Shown one piece after another: positions 3,105-31,696 of a stretch of DNA of 64,000 nt. Where the stretch lies: positions 1-64,000 of the forward strand of contig JAICJH010000010.1 in assembly GCA_025928545.1 (NCBI GenBank). The letters run 5' to 3'. Position 1 is the stretch's first letter, and every line of letters begins with the position of its first letter. The DNA comes from Bryobacteraceae bacterium. Lineage in GTDB: Bacteria; Acidobacteriota; Terriglobia; Bryobacterales; Bryobacteraceae. The notes under the pieces are model-generated. The model did no database searches, had not been told where the DNA came from, and saw only the letters and a program-made list of their open reading frames with translations. Made by a program: the position numbers and the translations under genes.

Positions 3105-5219
3105 TTATTGCGCGGCAGGGGACGGGCCACCGTCGGACAGGGTGAAATTAACGTCGATCGTCGTCAACACTTCGACGGCGTTTCCGTTCAACAGCGTGGG
3201 CTTGTACTGCCATTGCTTCACTGCCTCCAATGCGGCAGGAATCAGCAGCGGCGGTCCTGAGATCACCTTGAGATCCTCAATGTACCCTTCCTTCGCGATA
3301 GTCGCTTCGAATTTAACCGTGCCCTGCTGGCGCGCCATTTTTGCGAGCGGTGGATAGACCGGCTTTACCGCGCTGAGGAGGTTTGCCGCCTGGACGTTGC
3401 CGCCGATCCGCTGGGGACCATTGGTGGCGTTGCCCGAAAACTGTGTTGCCGCGGGAATAAGACTGCCCATCATTTGACCAGGCGCTCCACTGGCGATGAC
3501 GGTCTGCGGCGCTGTAATTCGAAGTTCCGAAGTGTTATTCCCCATAGTCGCGAATGAGGCTGCCAGGTGCGAATCAAACGCCTTCGCGACCTCGATCGAT
3601 TTGACGGCGAGTTCGTACGACCATGGATCGCCCGGACGAAACGGAATCTGTGCGATGAGCTGATCGCGCGTCGAATCGGAAAGGCCGGCAACAACGATGT
3701 TGCCGAATTTCCGGGACTGCATCTGCTGGGCTGCGGCCAGTTCCTGCAGCTTCTTCTGCATTTCATTGAGGAGTGCTGTCCCTGCGGGATCTGATCCGTC
3801 CGCCTGCTTTTTCTTCAGCTCCGACAACTGGTTCAACATGAAGTTTTCAAGCGCCGGATTGGATTGTTGAACAACTGCCGGAGTCGGCCCCGCGCCGCCG
3901 CGCCCACCGGGCGCCGGACGTGCTGGAGCAATTGGCACCTGTGCCTGAACCGAGGCAGGCACAGGCGAGTTCGCGCCCACCGGTTTCACGAAATCAATAT
4001 TCACCACTCGCGTAGCCCCGCCCGCGCTCTTATCGAAATGCCAGTTCAACACAGCCTGCTGCACGCCTTTACGCAGGTCATCCGGTCCGCTGAGAATGGC
4101 ATCGTCAATTACCTCGCCGTTTGCATCCAGCCTGACCTGAACAACCACCGTACCTTCCACGCCCTTCATCAAAGCGTCCACTGGATAAGAAACAGGCGTC
4201 CGGTGCATCAACTGCGAGCCGTTCATGTTCACGCTGACACCTGGTCCATCCACCATCATCTGCGCCTGCGCATGCAACGGAACCACACTGGTGATGAACC
4301 AGCACGCGACAGCCATCGTGCACAGGGCCGCCACCTGACCCATAACCAAACGCTTCTTCGACATCCTGGCCTCGCGGACAATCCCCATCACTCTCTGCTT
4401 CAAATGGCGGCGGCGGAGAAACAGCGGCGCCGGCGCCAGGTCCAGTTCGGCGGTTACTCCGGCCATAGCCAGCAAAGTATCTACGTACGGCCCGCGAGCC
4501 TGCGTCATATCGATGACCGCCTGATCCACGGTCTGCTCACGCGATAGCTGAATCTCGCCCAACACCCACCAGATCGCCGGATGAAACCAGAAGACGGCCC
4601 GTACGATTTCCTCTCCCAGCGTGAACAGCCAGTCGCGCCGCTCAACGTGAAGCAATTCGTGGAACAAAATTGCATCACGCATAGCGTCGGACATAGTTGG
4701 AAAGTTCGCGGGCAACAGAACCACGGGGCGGAAGAAGCCAAATGTCACCGGACCACTGATCTGATCAGACAACAGAAGCCTGGTGTCGCGTGCCGAGTTG
4801 CTCCATTCGGCGGGCAGCGGGATGGCTTGCCCGTGTCGGCGGTATCCGGCGAGTTTCAACAAACCGGTTGCCAGCCAGAGCAGGCGCAATGCGACGCCAG
4901 CCAGTAAAAGCCACAATGCGATGGACGTCACCGGCGGAAACACGGGCCGCACGGCTGCGTTCATGCCGACATGCTCAGCCATTTTCACCGCCACAATCGG
5001 CGCGTTCGCCATCACGATGACTTCCGAGCGCCAGGCTCGCATCCACGGCAGCGCCAGGCAGGCAACCAGCAACACCTGCCAGTAAAGGAGCCGCGCGGCG
5101 GGCGCTTTGCCTCCGCCGCTCAGACGCAGCAGCGCCGGCAGCGCCGCGCCGATTCCGACCAGCAGGCCAATCTGCAATACGTAAGCAATGATGTTCGTCC
5201 AGACCTGTGTCGTATCCAT
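3105..5219 (-). CDS. M56 family metallopeptidase with two TonB-C-like domains (paralog 1)
   Basis: N-terminal TM helices, HELLHVERRDW zinc motif, IWWVLGEIQLSREQTVDQAV; then SYPVDALMKGVEGTVVVQVRL and VYPPLAKMARQQGTVKFEATIAKEG TonB-C-like repeats. Confidence 0.88.
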   Translation of the reverse strand: MDTTQVWTNIIAYVLQIGLLVGIGAALPALLRLSGGGKAPAARLLYWQVLLVACLALPWMRAWRSEVIVMANAPIVAVKMAEHVGMNAAVRPVFPPVTSIALWLLLAGVALRLLWLATGLLKLAGYRRHGQAIPLPAEWSNSARDTRLLLSDQISGPVTFGFFRPVVLLPANFPTMSDAMRDAILFHELLHVERRDWLFTLGEEIVRAVFWFHPAIWWVLGEIQLSREQTVDQAVIDMTQARGPYVDTLLAMAGVTAELDLAPAPLFLRRRHLKQRVMGIVREARMSKKRLVMGQVAALCTMAVACWFITSVVPLHAQAQMMVDGPGVSVNMNGSQLMHRTPVSYPVDALMKGVEGTVVVQVRLDANGEVIDDAILSGPDDLRKGVQQAVLNWHFDKSAGGATRVVNIDFVKPVGANSPVPASVQAQVPIAPARPAPGGRGGAGPTPAVVQQSNPALENFMLNQLSELKKKQADGSDPAGTALLNEMQKKLQELAAAQQMQSRKFGNIVVAGLSDSTRDQLIAQIPFRPGDPWSYELAVKSIEVAKAFDSHLAASFATMGNNTSELRITAPQTVIASGAPGQMMGSLIPAATQFSGNATNGPQRIGGNVQAANLLSAVKPVYPPLAKMARQQGTVKFEATIAKEGYIEDLKVISGPPLLIPAALEAVKQWQYKPTLLNGNAVEVLTTIDVNFTLSDGGPSPAAQ

Positions 5220-26560: not shown

Positions 26561-26758
26561 CGGCTCTAGAATATACCTGTCGCTCCTGCCACCGCGCCGG
26601 TACCCAACGGCAAAGCAAACGCGTGCATGATCTCGGTGGCGCCAGGAATCACCTGATTGGCTTCAAGATCGGATTGGCTGCACCAATGGCTTTCTTCTCT
26701 TTCAATGTTTGGAAGAAATTCTTCTTCTGTTAGCGAATCCGGACTTACAATAGACGTA

Positions 26759-27520
26759 ATGAAACCACTGCTGGCGCGGCTTGTCGGAATGTTGCTTGTC
26801 GGAACTTTTCTTTACGCTCAGGCGCCTGCGCCAACCGTGGCATCTCTTACCGCCGAACTCACTGCGGCTCGCAAGAAGCTCGTCGATTGGGCCGGCCTCG
26901 TGGTCTACGGCAGCGACGATACCGAAGTCCCCGCGCCCAGGGCCGGTGAAAATCGCGTGGTCTTTCTCGGCGATTCCGTTACCGCCAATTGGGGCAAAGG
27001 CAAAACGCCATTCTTCCCCGGCAAGCCGTATTTGAACCGTGGTATCGCGGAGCAGACCACACCCCAGATGCTTGTGCGTTTTCGTCAGGACGTAGTGTCC
27101 CTGCAACCCAAAGTGGTGATCATCCAGGGAGGCCTGAACGACATCGGCATGGTCATGGGCCCGGGCAGTGAAGGCACCATATCCGATCACCTCCACTCGA
27201 TGATCGACATCGCCAAGGCGCACGGCATCAAAGTGGTGATTGCCTCACTAACGCCGATCTGCGATTGCTACAACTCCAGCCAAACGAGAATCCGTCCGGT
27301 AGGCAAGATCGCGGCCATCAACGGAACCCTGAGGGACATCGCGTCAGAGACAGGTTCCGTCTATCTCAATTACTACTCAGTGCTGGTCGACACAGCCGCC
27401 GGAACACGTCAGTTGAAAAAGGAACTGACCAACAACGGCATCGATCCCAACGACGCAGCCTACGTCCTGATGGCGCCCTTAGCCGAAAAAGCTATAGCCG
27501 ACGCTCTGGCATCGAAGTAA
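26759..27520 (+). CDS. SGNH/GDSL hydrolase family protein
   Basis: VVFLGDSVTANWGKG (block I), VVIIQGGLNDIG (block III); signal peptide MKPLLARLVGMLLVGTFLYAQA. Confidence 0.88.
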   Translation: MKPLLARLVGMLLVGTFLYAQAPAPTVASLTAELTAARKKLVDWAGLVVYGSDDTEVPAPRAGENRVVFLGDSVTANWGKGKTPFFPGKPYLNRGIAEQTTPQMLVRFRQDVVSLQPKVVIIQGGLNDIGMVMGPGSEGTISDHLHSMIDIAKAHGIKVVIASLTPICDCYNSSQTRIRPVGKIAAINGTLRDIASETGSVYLNYYSVLVDTAAGTRQLKKELTNNGIDPNDAAYVLMAPLAEKAIADALASK

Positions 27521-27594
27521 GTCATGCTCGACTCGGCGGCGATTGGAAAGTCGTAATTACGCAGAGTTCTGTGCACCGGGCGGAGCCAGCTCGA

Positions 27595-28176
27595 TTATTT
27601 GACAAACTCCTGTGATGGCACGCGGAACACGCCCTTTATGCATTGAGGGTTGCGGACCGCAATCTGCACATGTGTTTTCTCGCGAAATCCCGAACCTGGG
27701 TACAGAGGATCTCCCTCGGTAAAAACCCCCTTCAGCGTGTCGATCACGGGGAGTTTCTCGGCATCCAGAATGCTGTGCAGCCGCCGAATCACGGCGCAGT
27801 CGAGATTCCGCTTCAATTGGTCTTTGCTATTCGTTGGCAGGGGCAATCCCGCAGATATCGTCACCTTGAGAAAACTGTCATGGGCGATACGTACCCAGTC
27901 AAGTCCGATTGAAGTTGTTAGGTCAAAACAAAGACCGAGATCGATAATTGCACCGATGACAAACGGTCTTGAAATACCTGTACCTTTTCGGTTGGCTGTC
28001 TCGGTCGCGAACTCGAGAGCGCGTCTCGGATTGGCCTCCCAGAAATATATTCCGGGTCCCAGCCAGTCATAATCGTTGTCGCTTGGTTTAAAAGCTGCGC
28101 CTTCCAGGAGGCGCTCTCCGACTTTCCGATCACAACCGTGGTAACCGAGTATGAAGCTGGATGATAAACGATGCAA
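27595..28176 (-). CDS. PARP/ADP-ribosyltransferase-like protein (candidate toxin)
   Basis: GYHGCDRKVGERLLEG ... DYDWLGPGIYFWEANPRRALEFA: YHG and G-x-YF motifs like PARP/DUF3990 ART folds; C-terminal KTHVQIAVRNPQCIKGVFRV. Start probably TTG 28176, 5 nt after the upstream stop. Confidence 0.6.
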   Translation of the reverse strand: MHRLSSSFILGYHGCDRKVGERLLEGAAFKPSDNDYDWLGPGIYFWEANPRRALEFATETANRKGTGISRPFVIGAIIDLGLCFDLTTSIGLDWVRIAHDSFLKVTISAGLPLPTNSKDQLKRNLDCAVIRRLHSILDAEKLPVIDTLKGVFTEGDPLYPGSGFREKTHVQIAVRNPQCIKGVFRVPSQEFVK

Positions 28177-28181
28177 AGAAA

Positions 28182-28370
28182 TCAGCTATAACGCCGGGAG
28201 AGCCTTCCGGAATTGGTGTAGATGCCTTCGTCAATGAGGGTTTGGCGGGCTCTTGCGGGAGACTTGGTCACTCGCGTTGTGAAGGCATGAGCGGCCCTTC
28301 GGAAACGCTCAACCGCCTCATGCGAACTCAACTCGCCCTTTGGTCCCGATACTTTAGCGTTCAACTTCAC
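28182..28370 (-). CDS. Small 62-aa protein, candidate antitoxin partner
   Basis: MKLNAKVSGPKGELSSHEAVERFRRAAHAFTTRVTKSPARARQTLIDEGIYTNSGRLSRRYS; stop 5 nt upstream of the ART-like ORF. Confidence 0.6.
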   Translation of the reverse strand: MKLNAKVSGPKGELSSHEAVERFRRAAHAFTTRVTKSPARARQTLIDEGIYTNSGRLSRRYS

Positions 28371-28443
28371 ATCCTTAAGCTAGCATGCGATGTGATTCTG
28401 ACGTAAACAATGACCTCGCCGAACGCCGACACCCTGCCAGGTA

Positions 28444-28470
28444 GGCCATCGGTGTGCATCGGCGGCGATT
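28444..28470 (-). repeat. 10-bp-period intergenic repeat, copy 3 of 4 (short)
   Basis: Plus strand GGCCATCGGTGTGCATCGGCGGCGATT, abutting the stop of the minus-strand PQQ gene. Confidence 0.5.
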
Positions 28471-28471
28471 C

Positions 28472-30037
28472 CTACTTCGGCAAACCAAAAGCCCAGAACG
28501 TCCCGTCGTAAGTTCCCAGATAAATCTTCCCGTTCGCAATCGACAACCCCGCAAAGTGATTAAACGAAGTAATCGTATCGCCACTCGACCACAACTCTTT
28601 CCCGGTCTGCCCATCCAGCGCATAAATCGTAGCGTGACCCGACTCCGCCGCCCGCAGCGATGAATCGAAATTCAACCCGCGCTCCGGCGTAGCCTGCTTC
28701 GTAAATTCCCCGCTGCCGAACCCGTAAACAACCCCATTCGCAATCACCGGAGGATACCCGCGGTGCATATCGCGCGAAACCCACGCCGGCACCAACTCAA
28801 GCTTTCCACCCACTTCCTGCAGCTTGAAAGCAGCCACGCCGCCTTCTTTCGCCACCGGCGTATTTGTAACCGGGAACTTAAACGCCGGATGCGCCGGTCC
28901 CCAGAACGGAGCCAGTATCCAACGCGTGCCGGAAGCGTCTTCCCATGTCGAAAGCGCACCCCAGCTGCCCTGGTCCTGGAAGTCCGCATCTTCATTGCAG
29001 AACAGCGGTGTCTTATACAGAGGCGTGTGATGATCCGCGCCGCCCGGGCTCTTCGGATCCAGCAAAAACACCCGGCATTCTTTCCCCGAGGCAACCATCA
29101 GTTCACGGCCCTTGTAATTGAAAATCGTCGCCGTGTTATTCGGATCCAGATCGCGCTTCCACAGCCAGTACCAATTCGCCGGAGTGAAGTAATCCTTCAC
29201 CTTCACGTGGTCGCCGTCAATCGTAAAACCAACCATGCTGTTCGCGATAATCAGATTCTTCGGGTCGCTTTCGTCCACACTGCCGTCCCCCGTTGTGGAC
29301 CACACTGTTCCGGTCGAATCCACAGCCGCCCCCCGCAAGCCCCAAAGGCCGCCGCTCCTGCCCATACCTTCGGTCAGATAAATATGATGCGTCGGATCGT
29401 CCAGCTTCGTCGCTCCCATGAACCCATTGATTGGAGCCCACAGCGTATTCCCCACCAGCTGCAGCGCAAACTTGCTGTTCCCGAACTTAAACGGCGGCGT
29501 AATATCTTCGCCATTCACCGTGTCCAGCGAATGCAGCATCCCGCCGCCGTCTGTCATGTAAATAGGACGATGGCCATTCGGCCCGGGAGGTCCGATAACC
29601 GGAGTATCCGTACTGCCGCCCGGACCCAGAAACCCCAGATGCGCCGGATCGACATTGGCGTTATTACCGCCGCGTCCGGCGGGCGCTTCGTAGGTGAAAT
29701 GCTTTTTCCAGACGATCTTTCCGGTCTCCGCCTCGACGGCGTACAGGTTATCCGAAGCTCCGACAAAATACGCCATCTCCTTAGTCCCGCCGTTGGCCGG
29801 CACATTCAGAATCAGCGCGGGCGTGAACGAAAACAAGGCGCGCGTCACGTTGTCCGTCTTCAGCTTCCAGAGCAGTTTCAGATTCTTGACATTATCCTTG
29901 TTCAGAATCTTTTCGTCGCGCTGCCAGCCGGTTCTCTGGGCATCGCCGCCGTCCGTCGTCCACTCGGCCGCCCAACCCAGCCCGCAAAACGCCGCGCAAC
30001 CCAAAGTCGCAATCGCAATATAGATTAGTTTTCGCAT
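28472..30037 (-). CDS. PQQ-binding-like beta-propeller protein
   Basis: Signal peptide; WKLKTDNVTRALFSFTPALIL, LYAVEAETGKIVWKKHF, IYALDGQTGKELWSSGDTI blade motifs. Confidence 0.85.
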   Translation of the reverse strand: MRKLIYIAIATLGCAAFCGLGWAAEWTTDGGDAQRTGWQRDEKILNKDNVKNLKLLWKLKTDNVTRALFSFTPALILNVPANGGTKEMAYFVGASDNLYAVEAETGKIVWKKHFTYEAPAGRGGNNANVDPAHLGFLGPGGSTDTPVIGPPGPNGHRPIYMTDGGGMLHSLDTVNGEDITPPFKFGNSKFALQLVGNTLWAPINGFMGATKLDDPTHHIYLTEGMGRSGGLWGLRGAAVDSTGTVWSTTGDGSVDESDPKNLIIANSMVGFTIDGDHVKVKDYFTPANWYWLWKRDLDPNNTATIFNYKGRELMVASGKECRVFLLDPKSPGGADHHTPLYKTPLFCNEDADFQDQGSWGALSTWEDASGTRWILAPFWGPAHPAFKFPVTNTPVAKEGGVAAFKLQEVGGKLELVPAWVSRDMHRGYPPVIANGVVYGFGSGEFTKQATPERGLNFDSSLRAAESGHATIYALDGQTGKELWSSGDTITSFNHFAGLSIANGKIYLGTYDGTFWAFGLPK

Positions 30038-30058
30038 CTTAATCTCTCTTGAATCTGT

Positions 30059-31696
30059 CTAGAAAAGAATCGGAATCCCGTAAGCATGCACCTGGCTGTC
30101 GTGCGTCGTGAATAACACAATCGATGCATCGATCGCCAGCCCGCCCGTTGCATAGCTTGTCGCCGTCTGACCGCTGGACCAGATCTCCTTGCCTGTCGAC
30201 GAATCGAGCGCGTACAGTACCGCGTTCTTAGGCGTCTTGCCCTGGCCTGTCGAGAGCGCGAATACCAGGCCATTCGTCACCGCCGGAGCAGCCGGTGAGA
30301 CCATATCCCGCGAACTCCACACCGGGACCAGCGAGGGCTTGCCGCCCTGATCCACCACCTTGAAAGCCACGATGGATCCCGTCGGAGCGGCGCCGTTCGA
30401 TGTGCCGAACTTCAGCGGAGACGCACCGGATATCGACGCATAAATCCATCTCGTCCCCGGCGCGGAAGGTGGCGGCGGGGCCCCTCGGCCCGCCGCACCA
30501 CGACCTTGCGGAGGAGGTGGTGCATCGTCCCATGTCGCGAACGCATTCCAGATGCCGTTGACGCCATCCGCGGCCGCAAAAACCTCGCTCTGCGCAAGCG
30601 GCGTGTGGTGGTCGCTGCCACCGAGCGAAGCTGAATCGAGCAGATAAATCCGTCCATCCGTGCCACCGCTCACGATCACTTCTTTGCCGTTCCACTCGAA
30701 CACCGCGGGCGTTGCGCCAGGTACTTCCGCGCCTTTCTTAACAGCTGCGGCGGCTCCTGACGGAGTGAAGTAATCCTTCACAACAAGATCTTTCGCCCCC
30801 AGCGCGACAACCGTGTTGTTGTACTTGCCGGCCACGGTTCCCTGTCCCTCGGGAATCAATCCGTAAATCGTGCTGTCATCCGTGGCGGCCGCAACGCCGG
30901 CCGAACCCGCAAATCCGCTCCCATTCGTCGGAAACGAAATCACCTTCTTCTCTGGCGTCGAAAGATCAATCGCATAAAGAGCGTTCGGATTCCCGCCGCA
31001 CTCGTTCTGCGTCGCCGCATACACGACGTTGTCCACGATGTTGAGATCGCTGACCCGCGAATTGGCCGGAACAAACTTCACCGGTGCGGTCGCTTTGTTG
31101 TCGCCATCCTGCTCACGCAACGTCTGCAGATTTCCATCGGCGTCTACAACCCAGACATTGGCCCCGGCGCCACGTCCGCCGCCGCCACCTCCGCCTCCTC
31201 CGCCGCGCGCCGCGCCAGATGCCCCGGCCGCGCCGCGTCCACCACCTCCGCCGCCGCCACCGCGGGCAGGACCCCGGCCGCCCCCGCTCCCGCCGTTGAT
31301 CACCGCCGAACCCGTAATTCCTCCCGGGCAAGTCGCTGTTGCGGCAGTCGTCTGAGCAGCACTATTGATGTGTGTTTTGAAGTAAGGCTTGCCGGTCCAG
31401 AAATCGACCGAGTAGACATCGGAATTGCCAGGCACGAACAGCAGAGCCTTGAATCCCTTCCAGCCGATGATATTGCCGAGCAACACCGGCGTCCCCATCC
31501 TCTGGGCTTTGGCATCCACTTTATAGGAATAGAGCAGCTTGATATCGCCCTTGGCTGCGCTCTCTCGCGAAAGCTTAAACTCAGCCCGCTGCCACCCGTC
31601 GCGCTGCGGATTTCCGCTCGAACTCGCCCAGTCGCCGCTAAGTAAAAAAGCGCCCGCAATCCCGACTGTGATCCCAATAAATAGTGCTCTCTTCAT
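30059..31696 (-). CDS. PQQ-binding-like beta-propeller protein with Gly/Arg-rich insert
   Basis: LYALDSSTGKEIWSSGQTATSYATGGLAID parallels the neighbour; insert GGGSGGGRGPARGGGGGGGGRGAAGASGAARGGGGGGGGGGRGAG. Confidence 0.85.
   Translation of the reverse strand: MKRALFIGITVGIAGAFLLSGDWASSSGNPQRDGWQRAEFKLSRESAAKGDIKLLYSYKVDAKAQRMGTPVLLGNIIGWKGFKALLFVPGNSDVYSVDFWTGKPYFKTHINSAAQTTAATATCPGGITGSAVINGGSGGGRGPARGGGGGGGGRGAAGASGAARGGGGGGGGGGRGAGANVWVVDADGNLQTLREQDGDNKATAPVKFVPANSRVSDLNIVDNVVYAATQNECGGNPNALYAIDLSTPEKKVISFPTNGSGFAGSAGVAAATDDSTIYGLIPEGQGTVAGKYNNTVVALGAKDLVVKDYFTPSGAAAAVKKGAEVPGATPAVFEWNGKEVIVSGGTDGRIYLLDSASLGGSDHHTPLAQSEVFAAADGVNGIWNAFATWDDAPPPPQGRGAAGRGAPPPPSAPGTRWIYASISGASPLKFGTSNGAAPTGSIVAFKVVDQGGKPSLVPVWSSRDMVSPAAPAVTNGLVFALSTGQGKTPKNAVLYALDSSTGKEIWSSGQTATSYATGGLAIDASIVLFTTHDSQVHAYGIPILF

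Follow-up and report, generated by a model that had tools for sequence, protein, structure and literature searches.

The first 64,000 nucleotides of contig JAICJH010000010.1 from a Bryobacteraceae bacterium (phylum Acidobacteriota), referred to here as the window, contain a pair of short genes on the minus strand encoding proteins of 193 and about 60 amino acids, which, judged from their sequences, very probably represent an apparently undescribed two-gene family of type II-like toxin-antitoxin (TA) modules. An earlier note based on the DNA letters had described two minus-strand open reading frames (ORFs) 5 nt apart between unrelated genes, and both ORFs were located exactly as described (Table 1), with the start codon of the larger, putative toxin gene lying 5 nt after the stop codon of the smaller one. 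The small ORF probably begins at TTG 28364 and not at GTG 28370, because the AAGGA sequence is 7 nt upstream of the former but 1 nt away from the latter. Among the homologues of the larger gene the start codons are TTG (37), GTG (26) and ATG (22). Scans for inverted repeats and promoters around the operon gave nothing convincing.

Table 1. Positions of the two genes, their conserved residues and the flanking features in the window.
Feature	Position	Strand	Remarks
Toxin gene	27595..28176	-	193 aa, predicted ADP-ribosyltransferase-like protein; TTG start
Candidate antitoxin gene	28182..28370	-	62 aa from GTG 28370; probably 60 aa from TTG 28364
H13 codon, motif I (YHG)	28138..28140	-	95/95 homologues; strand 8-16, first main strand
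Y44 codon, motif II (GxYFWE)	28045..28047	-	95/95 homologues; strand 42-47, second main strand
E154 codon	27715..27717	-	95/95 homologues; invariant acidic residue immediately preceding the final strands
Q171 codon, third catalytic position (THxQI)	27664..27666	-	93/95 homologues; strand 169-174, fifth main strand
C-terminal motif of the small protein, AxxxLxxxGIxTxxGxLxxxY	28188..28250	-	A41, L45, G49, G55 and Y61 at least 90% conserved (45 diverse members)
Inserted segment with only the two genes	27521..28471	.	gap of ~61 bp in sister genome G407 (blastn/tblastn against L131)
SGNH-hydrolase-like gene	26657-27520	+	convergent; flanks the pair
PQQ-type dehydrogenase-like gene	28472-30037	-	flanks the pair

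The family relationships of the 193-aa protein were studied by profile searches. Scans of the single proteins against Pfam and NCBIfam returned no matching model for either gene product, and when 100 relatives of the toxin were scanned with Pfam only three weakly reached the PARP catalytic domain. The toxin matched phrog_14664, a PHROGs entry of unknown function, over residues 9-186 (E 1.5e-20), as did all 100 family members. It also matched the PADLOC model PD-T4-9_A, which corresponds to CmdT, over residues 8-59 only (E 2.4e-5); this model again matched 100 of 100 relatives, and all six of its matches in the phylum are members of the toxin family described here. A phmmer search of the PDB gave chance matches only, and aminotransferase matches in a profile search (E 0.06) were rejected as chance. 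A 603-aa 'fusion' at one locus (L068) was also rejected, as it seems to have arisen from a frameshift that runs the ORF into a D-Ala-D-Ala ligase.

The structure of the toxin was predicted with AlphaFold2 using an alignment of 95 relatives (three rows from plasmid records were dropped), giving a model with a predicted local distance difference test score (pLDDT) of 95.9, a predicted template modelling score (pTM) of 0.90 and strands at residues 8-16, 42-47, 71-79, 147-152, 169-174 and 180-185 that follow the order of ADP-ribosyltransferases (ARTs). Comparison with the PDB using Foldseek identified NatT (8qnl, probability 0.93), AcrIF11 (6kyf, 0.84), PARP4 (8swy, 0.75), RES (9r35) and tankyrase; the first four ranks were all ARTs, with every E above 0.001. 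Models of phage ART-PolyVal-type proteins matched the fold more strongly, with E values down to 8e-7 and six phage proteins below 0.001, among them an ART-PolyVal-like one. The 193-aa protein is thus predicted to have an ART fold, in which a split beta-sheet bears the catalytic residues on strands one, two and five, in agreement with the ART-like character proposed in the earlier note.

The motifs that had been quoted for the 193-aa ORF, GYHGCD, DWLGPGIYFWEANPRRALEFA and KTHVQIAVRNPQ, were all found in it, exact to the letter. Across the 95 full-length homologues H13, G14, Y44, DWLG and E154 are identical, while Q171 is conserved in 93, and this conservation is far beyond chance. The strand carrying Q171 we take to be the position of the PARP/DTX catalytic Glu; the earlier note had suggested that a late strand could supply the third catalytic position as Q or E. 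The combination H13-Y44-Q171 has the catalytic triad of the H-Y group of the ART superfamily and fits the HY-[E,D,Q] triad reported for CmdT (PMC11618068). It could be that the protein degrades NAD+ as the RES toxins NatT, ParT and MbcT do, leading to stasis with no macromolecule being modified, especially as NatT and RES are among the best PDB fold matches and a third residue that is Q, not E, means that transferase chemistry is not assured. Note, however, that the active site is built on H-Y-Q and not on the RES set (PMC11535050), and that the sequence kinship of the toxin is with CmdT, a transferase, so that NAD+ degradation is considered unlikely.

The small protein is built from a variable N terminus, a helix pair and a conserved tail (Table 1), and in the window it stops one residue past the conserved Y61, with no long disordered extension. 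No PADLOC model matched it, including the CmdTAC models, and comparison of the toxin and small-protein profiles detected no homology between the two. The Fic-antitoxin motif is [ST]xxxE[GN]; the window protein fits it (TLIDEG), but this assignment was rejected since the motif is not conserved in the family. On one viral contig (L097) the antitoxin ORF was observed to have a long Ala/Lys/Pro repeat N terminus and to end about 1 nt before position 909. The relationship between the two proteins was explored by a joint model prepared from a locus (L025) where the genes are in frame, so that translating the stop codon as glycine joined the two proteins into a single modelled chain. In this case, residues 21-60 of the small protein formed a block with pLDDT values of 89-94 and the overall pTM was 0.82, which suggests a defined placement of the small protein on the toxin.

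The linkage of the two genes was studied by running a small-protein profile over all 14,668 ORFs of 111 homologous loci. A match was present directly upstream of the toxin gene at 107 of the 111 loci with E below 1e-3, and at 110 with E below 0.2, the gap between the genes ranging from -10 to +43 nt. The profile was built from the same upstream ORFs, so the count of 107 is on its own partly circular. The stronger tests of pairing are the absence of other profile matches, with just one further match below E 0.5 among all of the ORFs, and co-occurrence between genomes: the toxin is found in seven of the phylum's 396 genomes, and the small protein in these seven and in no others, in a genome search with a ceiling of 15 scored candidates for each genome. 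A toxin homologue lacking the small ORF and a predicted non-ART fold had both been named in the earlier note as observations that would refute a module, and neither check did so: of the former one clear case (L109) was seen among the 111 loci, and the predicted fold is ART-like. In every close pair for which dS could be estimated without saturation, the ratio of nonsynonymous to synonymous substitution rates (dN/dS) was 0.05-0.38 for both genes, which are under purifying selection. The distances between toxins correlate with those between small proteins (Spearman rho 0.53), and none of 999 permutations gave a value as high, the best reaching 0.17. At a Komagataeibacter plasmid locus (L008) a second antitoxin-like ORF (4985-5182, E 0.037) separates the ART toxin from a Fic gene; the idea of a shared antitoxin was dropped, the ORF being probably a degenerate copy of the antitoxin next to it.

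Relatives of the toxin were found, in addition to the seven genomes of the phylum, in 64 plasmid records (35 of them conjugative), 482 genome-contig stretches and 19 viral contigs, and the pair spans at least Acidobacteriota, Pseudomonadota, Nitrospinota, Myxococcota, Binatota, Vulcanimicrobiota (Eremiobacterota), Lentisphaerota and Campylobacterota. Within the genus its occurrence is patchy, a toxin or its remnant being present in 4 of 19 genomes, and the module copies in two of these (G399 and G409) adjoin other genes. In the window the two genes are alone in a gap of 951 bp, compared with ~61 bp between the same flanking genes in the sister genome G407. The same gap in a further sister genome (G396) holds ~2.3 kb of other genes, indicating that the insertion site is variable, and this intergenic site may be an insertion hotspot. 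The G396 locus (L133, 2690-3001) carries, in place of the module, a Barstar-like ORF, recognised by eye, together with two paralogous ORFs. The PQQ-dehydrogenase-like genes, one of which flanks the pair, are greatly expanded in the genome of the window, with 39 matches including window positions 28472-31696. The genes downstream of the module at 85 loci show no relation to one another, with no Pfam family common to more than four of them; in a few cases they are defence genes, for example SoFic, a TIR effector, Leo and SAVED.

The pair could instead be a counter-defence or transfer enzyme of phage or plasmid origin, an AcrIF11-like ART with a helper protein and no toxin at all. The fold does resemble AcrIF11 and the phage ARTs, and the module is found near the tra genes of plasmids and on viral contigs. 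Most of the loci retrieved, however, are on bacterial genome contigs beside unrelated and often housekeeping neighbours, in the window the pair stands alone between chromosomal genes, and AcrIF11 to our knowledge needs no obligate partner of this kind; this explanation is regarded as very improbable.

Decay of the module is asymmetric. Six loci keep the small gene beside a broken toxin (L021, L035, L051, L080, L142 and Synechococcus phage S-B28), against the one lone toxin, and this asymmetry is what TA decay predicts. At L142, in the sister genome G403, an internal deletion has removed toxin residues from about 82 to 170 while the antitoxin ORF is kept. In phage S-B28 (L143) an unannotated but intact small-protein ORF (1272-1487) lies directly upstream of a toxin ORF (1468-1821) that is cut off after ~90 residues, and from its sequence this small protein is possibly a phage-borne antitoxin. 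The broken loci also bear on the role of the small protein, which might be a folding partner or activator, in the way that CmdA helps CmdT to fold, with the complex as the active species and a separate event, such as a phage protein or a protease, controlling it. Obligate pairing fits an activator as well as an antitoxin, and NatT is degraded without NatR (PMC11535050). Against this, retention of the small gene beside a broken toxin is what an antitoxin would show and an activator would not, and no chaperone gene accompanies the pair, there being no SecB in the genome of the window and no recurrent family among the downstream neighbours. An activator role is accordingly given a low probability.

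One interpretation of these data, and the one that is considered likely, is that the two genes form a compact, mobile, two-gene TA module comprising an H-Y-Q ADP-ribosyltransferase toxin and a small antitoxin that binds it directly. The genes are adjacent and co-oriented with an obligately linked small partner, as in type II TA modules. The TA reading finds good support in the co-occurrence and co-variation of the two genes, in the purifying selection on both, in their patchy mobility and in a decay that strikes the toxin first. The earlier note had proposed a TA or defence module, and on these grounds the TA part stands, while a defence role can be put forward as a suggestion only. Several points weigh against this interpretation: the PDB fold matches of the toxin are weak (best E 0.007, TM about 0.4), its similarity to CmdT is confined to the short N-terminal stretch, no DNA-binding domain can be recognised in the small protein, nor has it a homologue among known antitoxins, the joint model came without interface output and its short artificial linker may bias the placement, and four frameshifted toxins are from draft or metagenome-assembled contigs and may be sequencing errors.

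In a mechanism of this type the ~60-aa protein would be made first from a shared transcript, bind the toxin directly and keep it off, its conserved GIxTxxGxLxxxY tail probably located at or near the NAD+ cleft. The weak start codons of the toxin genes and the tight spacing would fit translational coupling that holds the antitoxin in excess. The free toxin, acting as an NAD+-dependent ADP-ribosyltransferase through its H-Y-Q site, would modify a cellular macromolecule and so stop growth. RNA is proposed as the likeliest target because the toxin is kin to CmdT, and this is the weakest step of the scheme. Loss of the small protein, through loss of the plasmid or takeover by a phage, would then release the toxin and result in addiction or abortive infection. 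It is conceivable, and offered here only tentatively, that the pair represents a cross-phylum, chaperone-free family of RNA-targeting ART toxins with a new family of ~60-aa antitoxins, operating in anti-phage abortive infection, and that phages counter it by carrying the antitoxin, as the S-B28 arrangement would illustrate. A function open to testing would be assigned to hundreds of loci now annotated as 'hypothetical protein'. The module also raises the question of whether mRNA ADP-ribosylation recurs more widely, in plasmid addiction as well as in phage defence.

No description of the pair was found in the literature, with subscription journals mostly outside the coverage, so an earlier naming is possible. 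The earlier note had been unable to assign a named TA family, and this remains the case: no Pfam or NCBIfam family covers either protein, and membership of CmdTAC, RES-Xre and DarTG fails in each instance. Of the relatives it had mentioned, DarT found no support, there being no Pfam, NCBIfam or PADLOC match of the toxin to it, and Res/ParT is a weak fold match only; the nearest characterised toxin by sequence is CmdT of CmdTAC (PD-T4-9), the mRNA ADP-ribosyltransferase toxin-antitoxin-chaperone system of E. coli. The two systems share an ART toxin of ~190 aa with an H-Y-[E,D,Q] site, a small partner protein, adjacent genes and a sporadic distribution. A divergent CmdTAC system, with its chaperone lost or encoded elsewhere, would explain the PD-T4-9_A match of all 100 family members. 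In the present module, however, the antitoxin gene precedes the toxin gene, whereas the cmdTAC order is T-A-C; CmdA has a chaperone-addiction C terminus, whereas the window protein has no such tail; the small protein is not recognised by the CmdTAC models; the toxin homology covers just ~50 residues around motifs I and II; and SecB is missing from the genome. A CmdTAC origin is therefore improbable. Scanners scoring CmdT alone would nevertheless mislabel these loci as CmdTAC, because every PD-T4-9_A match in the phylum belongs to this family.

The RES-Xre group (NatRT, MbcTA and ParTS) resembles the module in having the antitoxin gene upstream of an ART-fold toxin and in a weak fold similarity (8qnl and 9r35), but the RES active-site residues differ from H-Y-Q (PMC11535050) and the antitoxins of that group are helix-turn-helix (HTH)/Xre proteins, in contrast to a ~60-aa protein with no Pfam match to an HTH family. 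The module would work along the lines of CmdTAC or RES-Xre but, as judged from sequence comparison, is a member of neither: SecB is missing, the genes stand in the opposite order, the antitoxin is unrelated and the active site is not that of RES. DarTG is likewise a two-gene ART toxin module, but its antitoxin DarG is a macrodomain hydrolase, and the 62-aa partner seen here is far too small for an ADP-ribosylhydrolase. AcrIF11 and the phage ART-PolyVal proteins share the ART-like fold; they are phage-encoded and act on a host target, and we know of no obligate small partner for them. The phrog_14664 entry, which all family members match, carried no function and is now tied to TA pairing. While antitoxin-paired ART toxins are already known from DarTG, RES-Xre and CmdTAC, the present toxin comes with a separate antitoxin family that is apparently unclassified, and it does so without a chaperone, offering a minimal system for how a 60-residue protein controls an ART.
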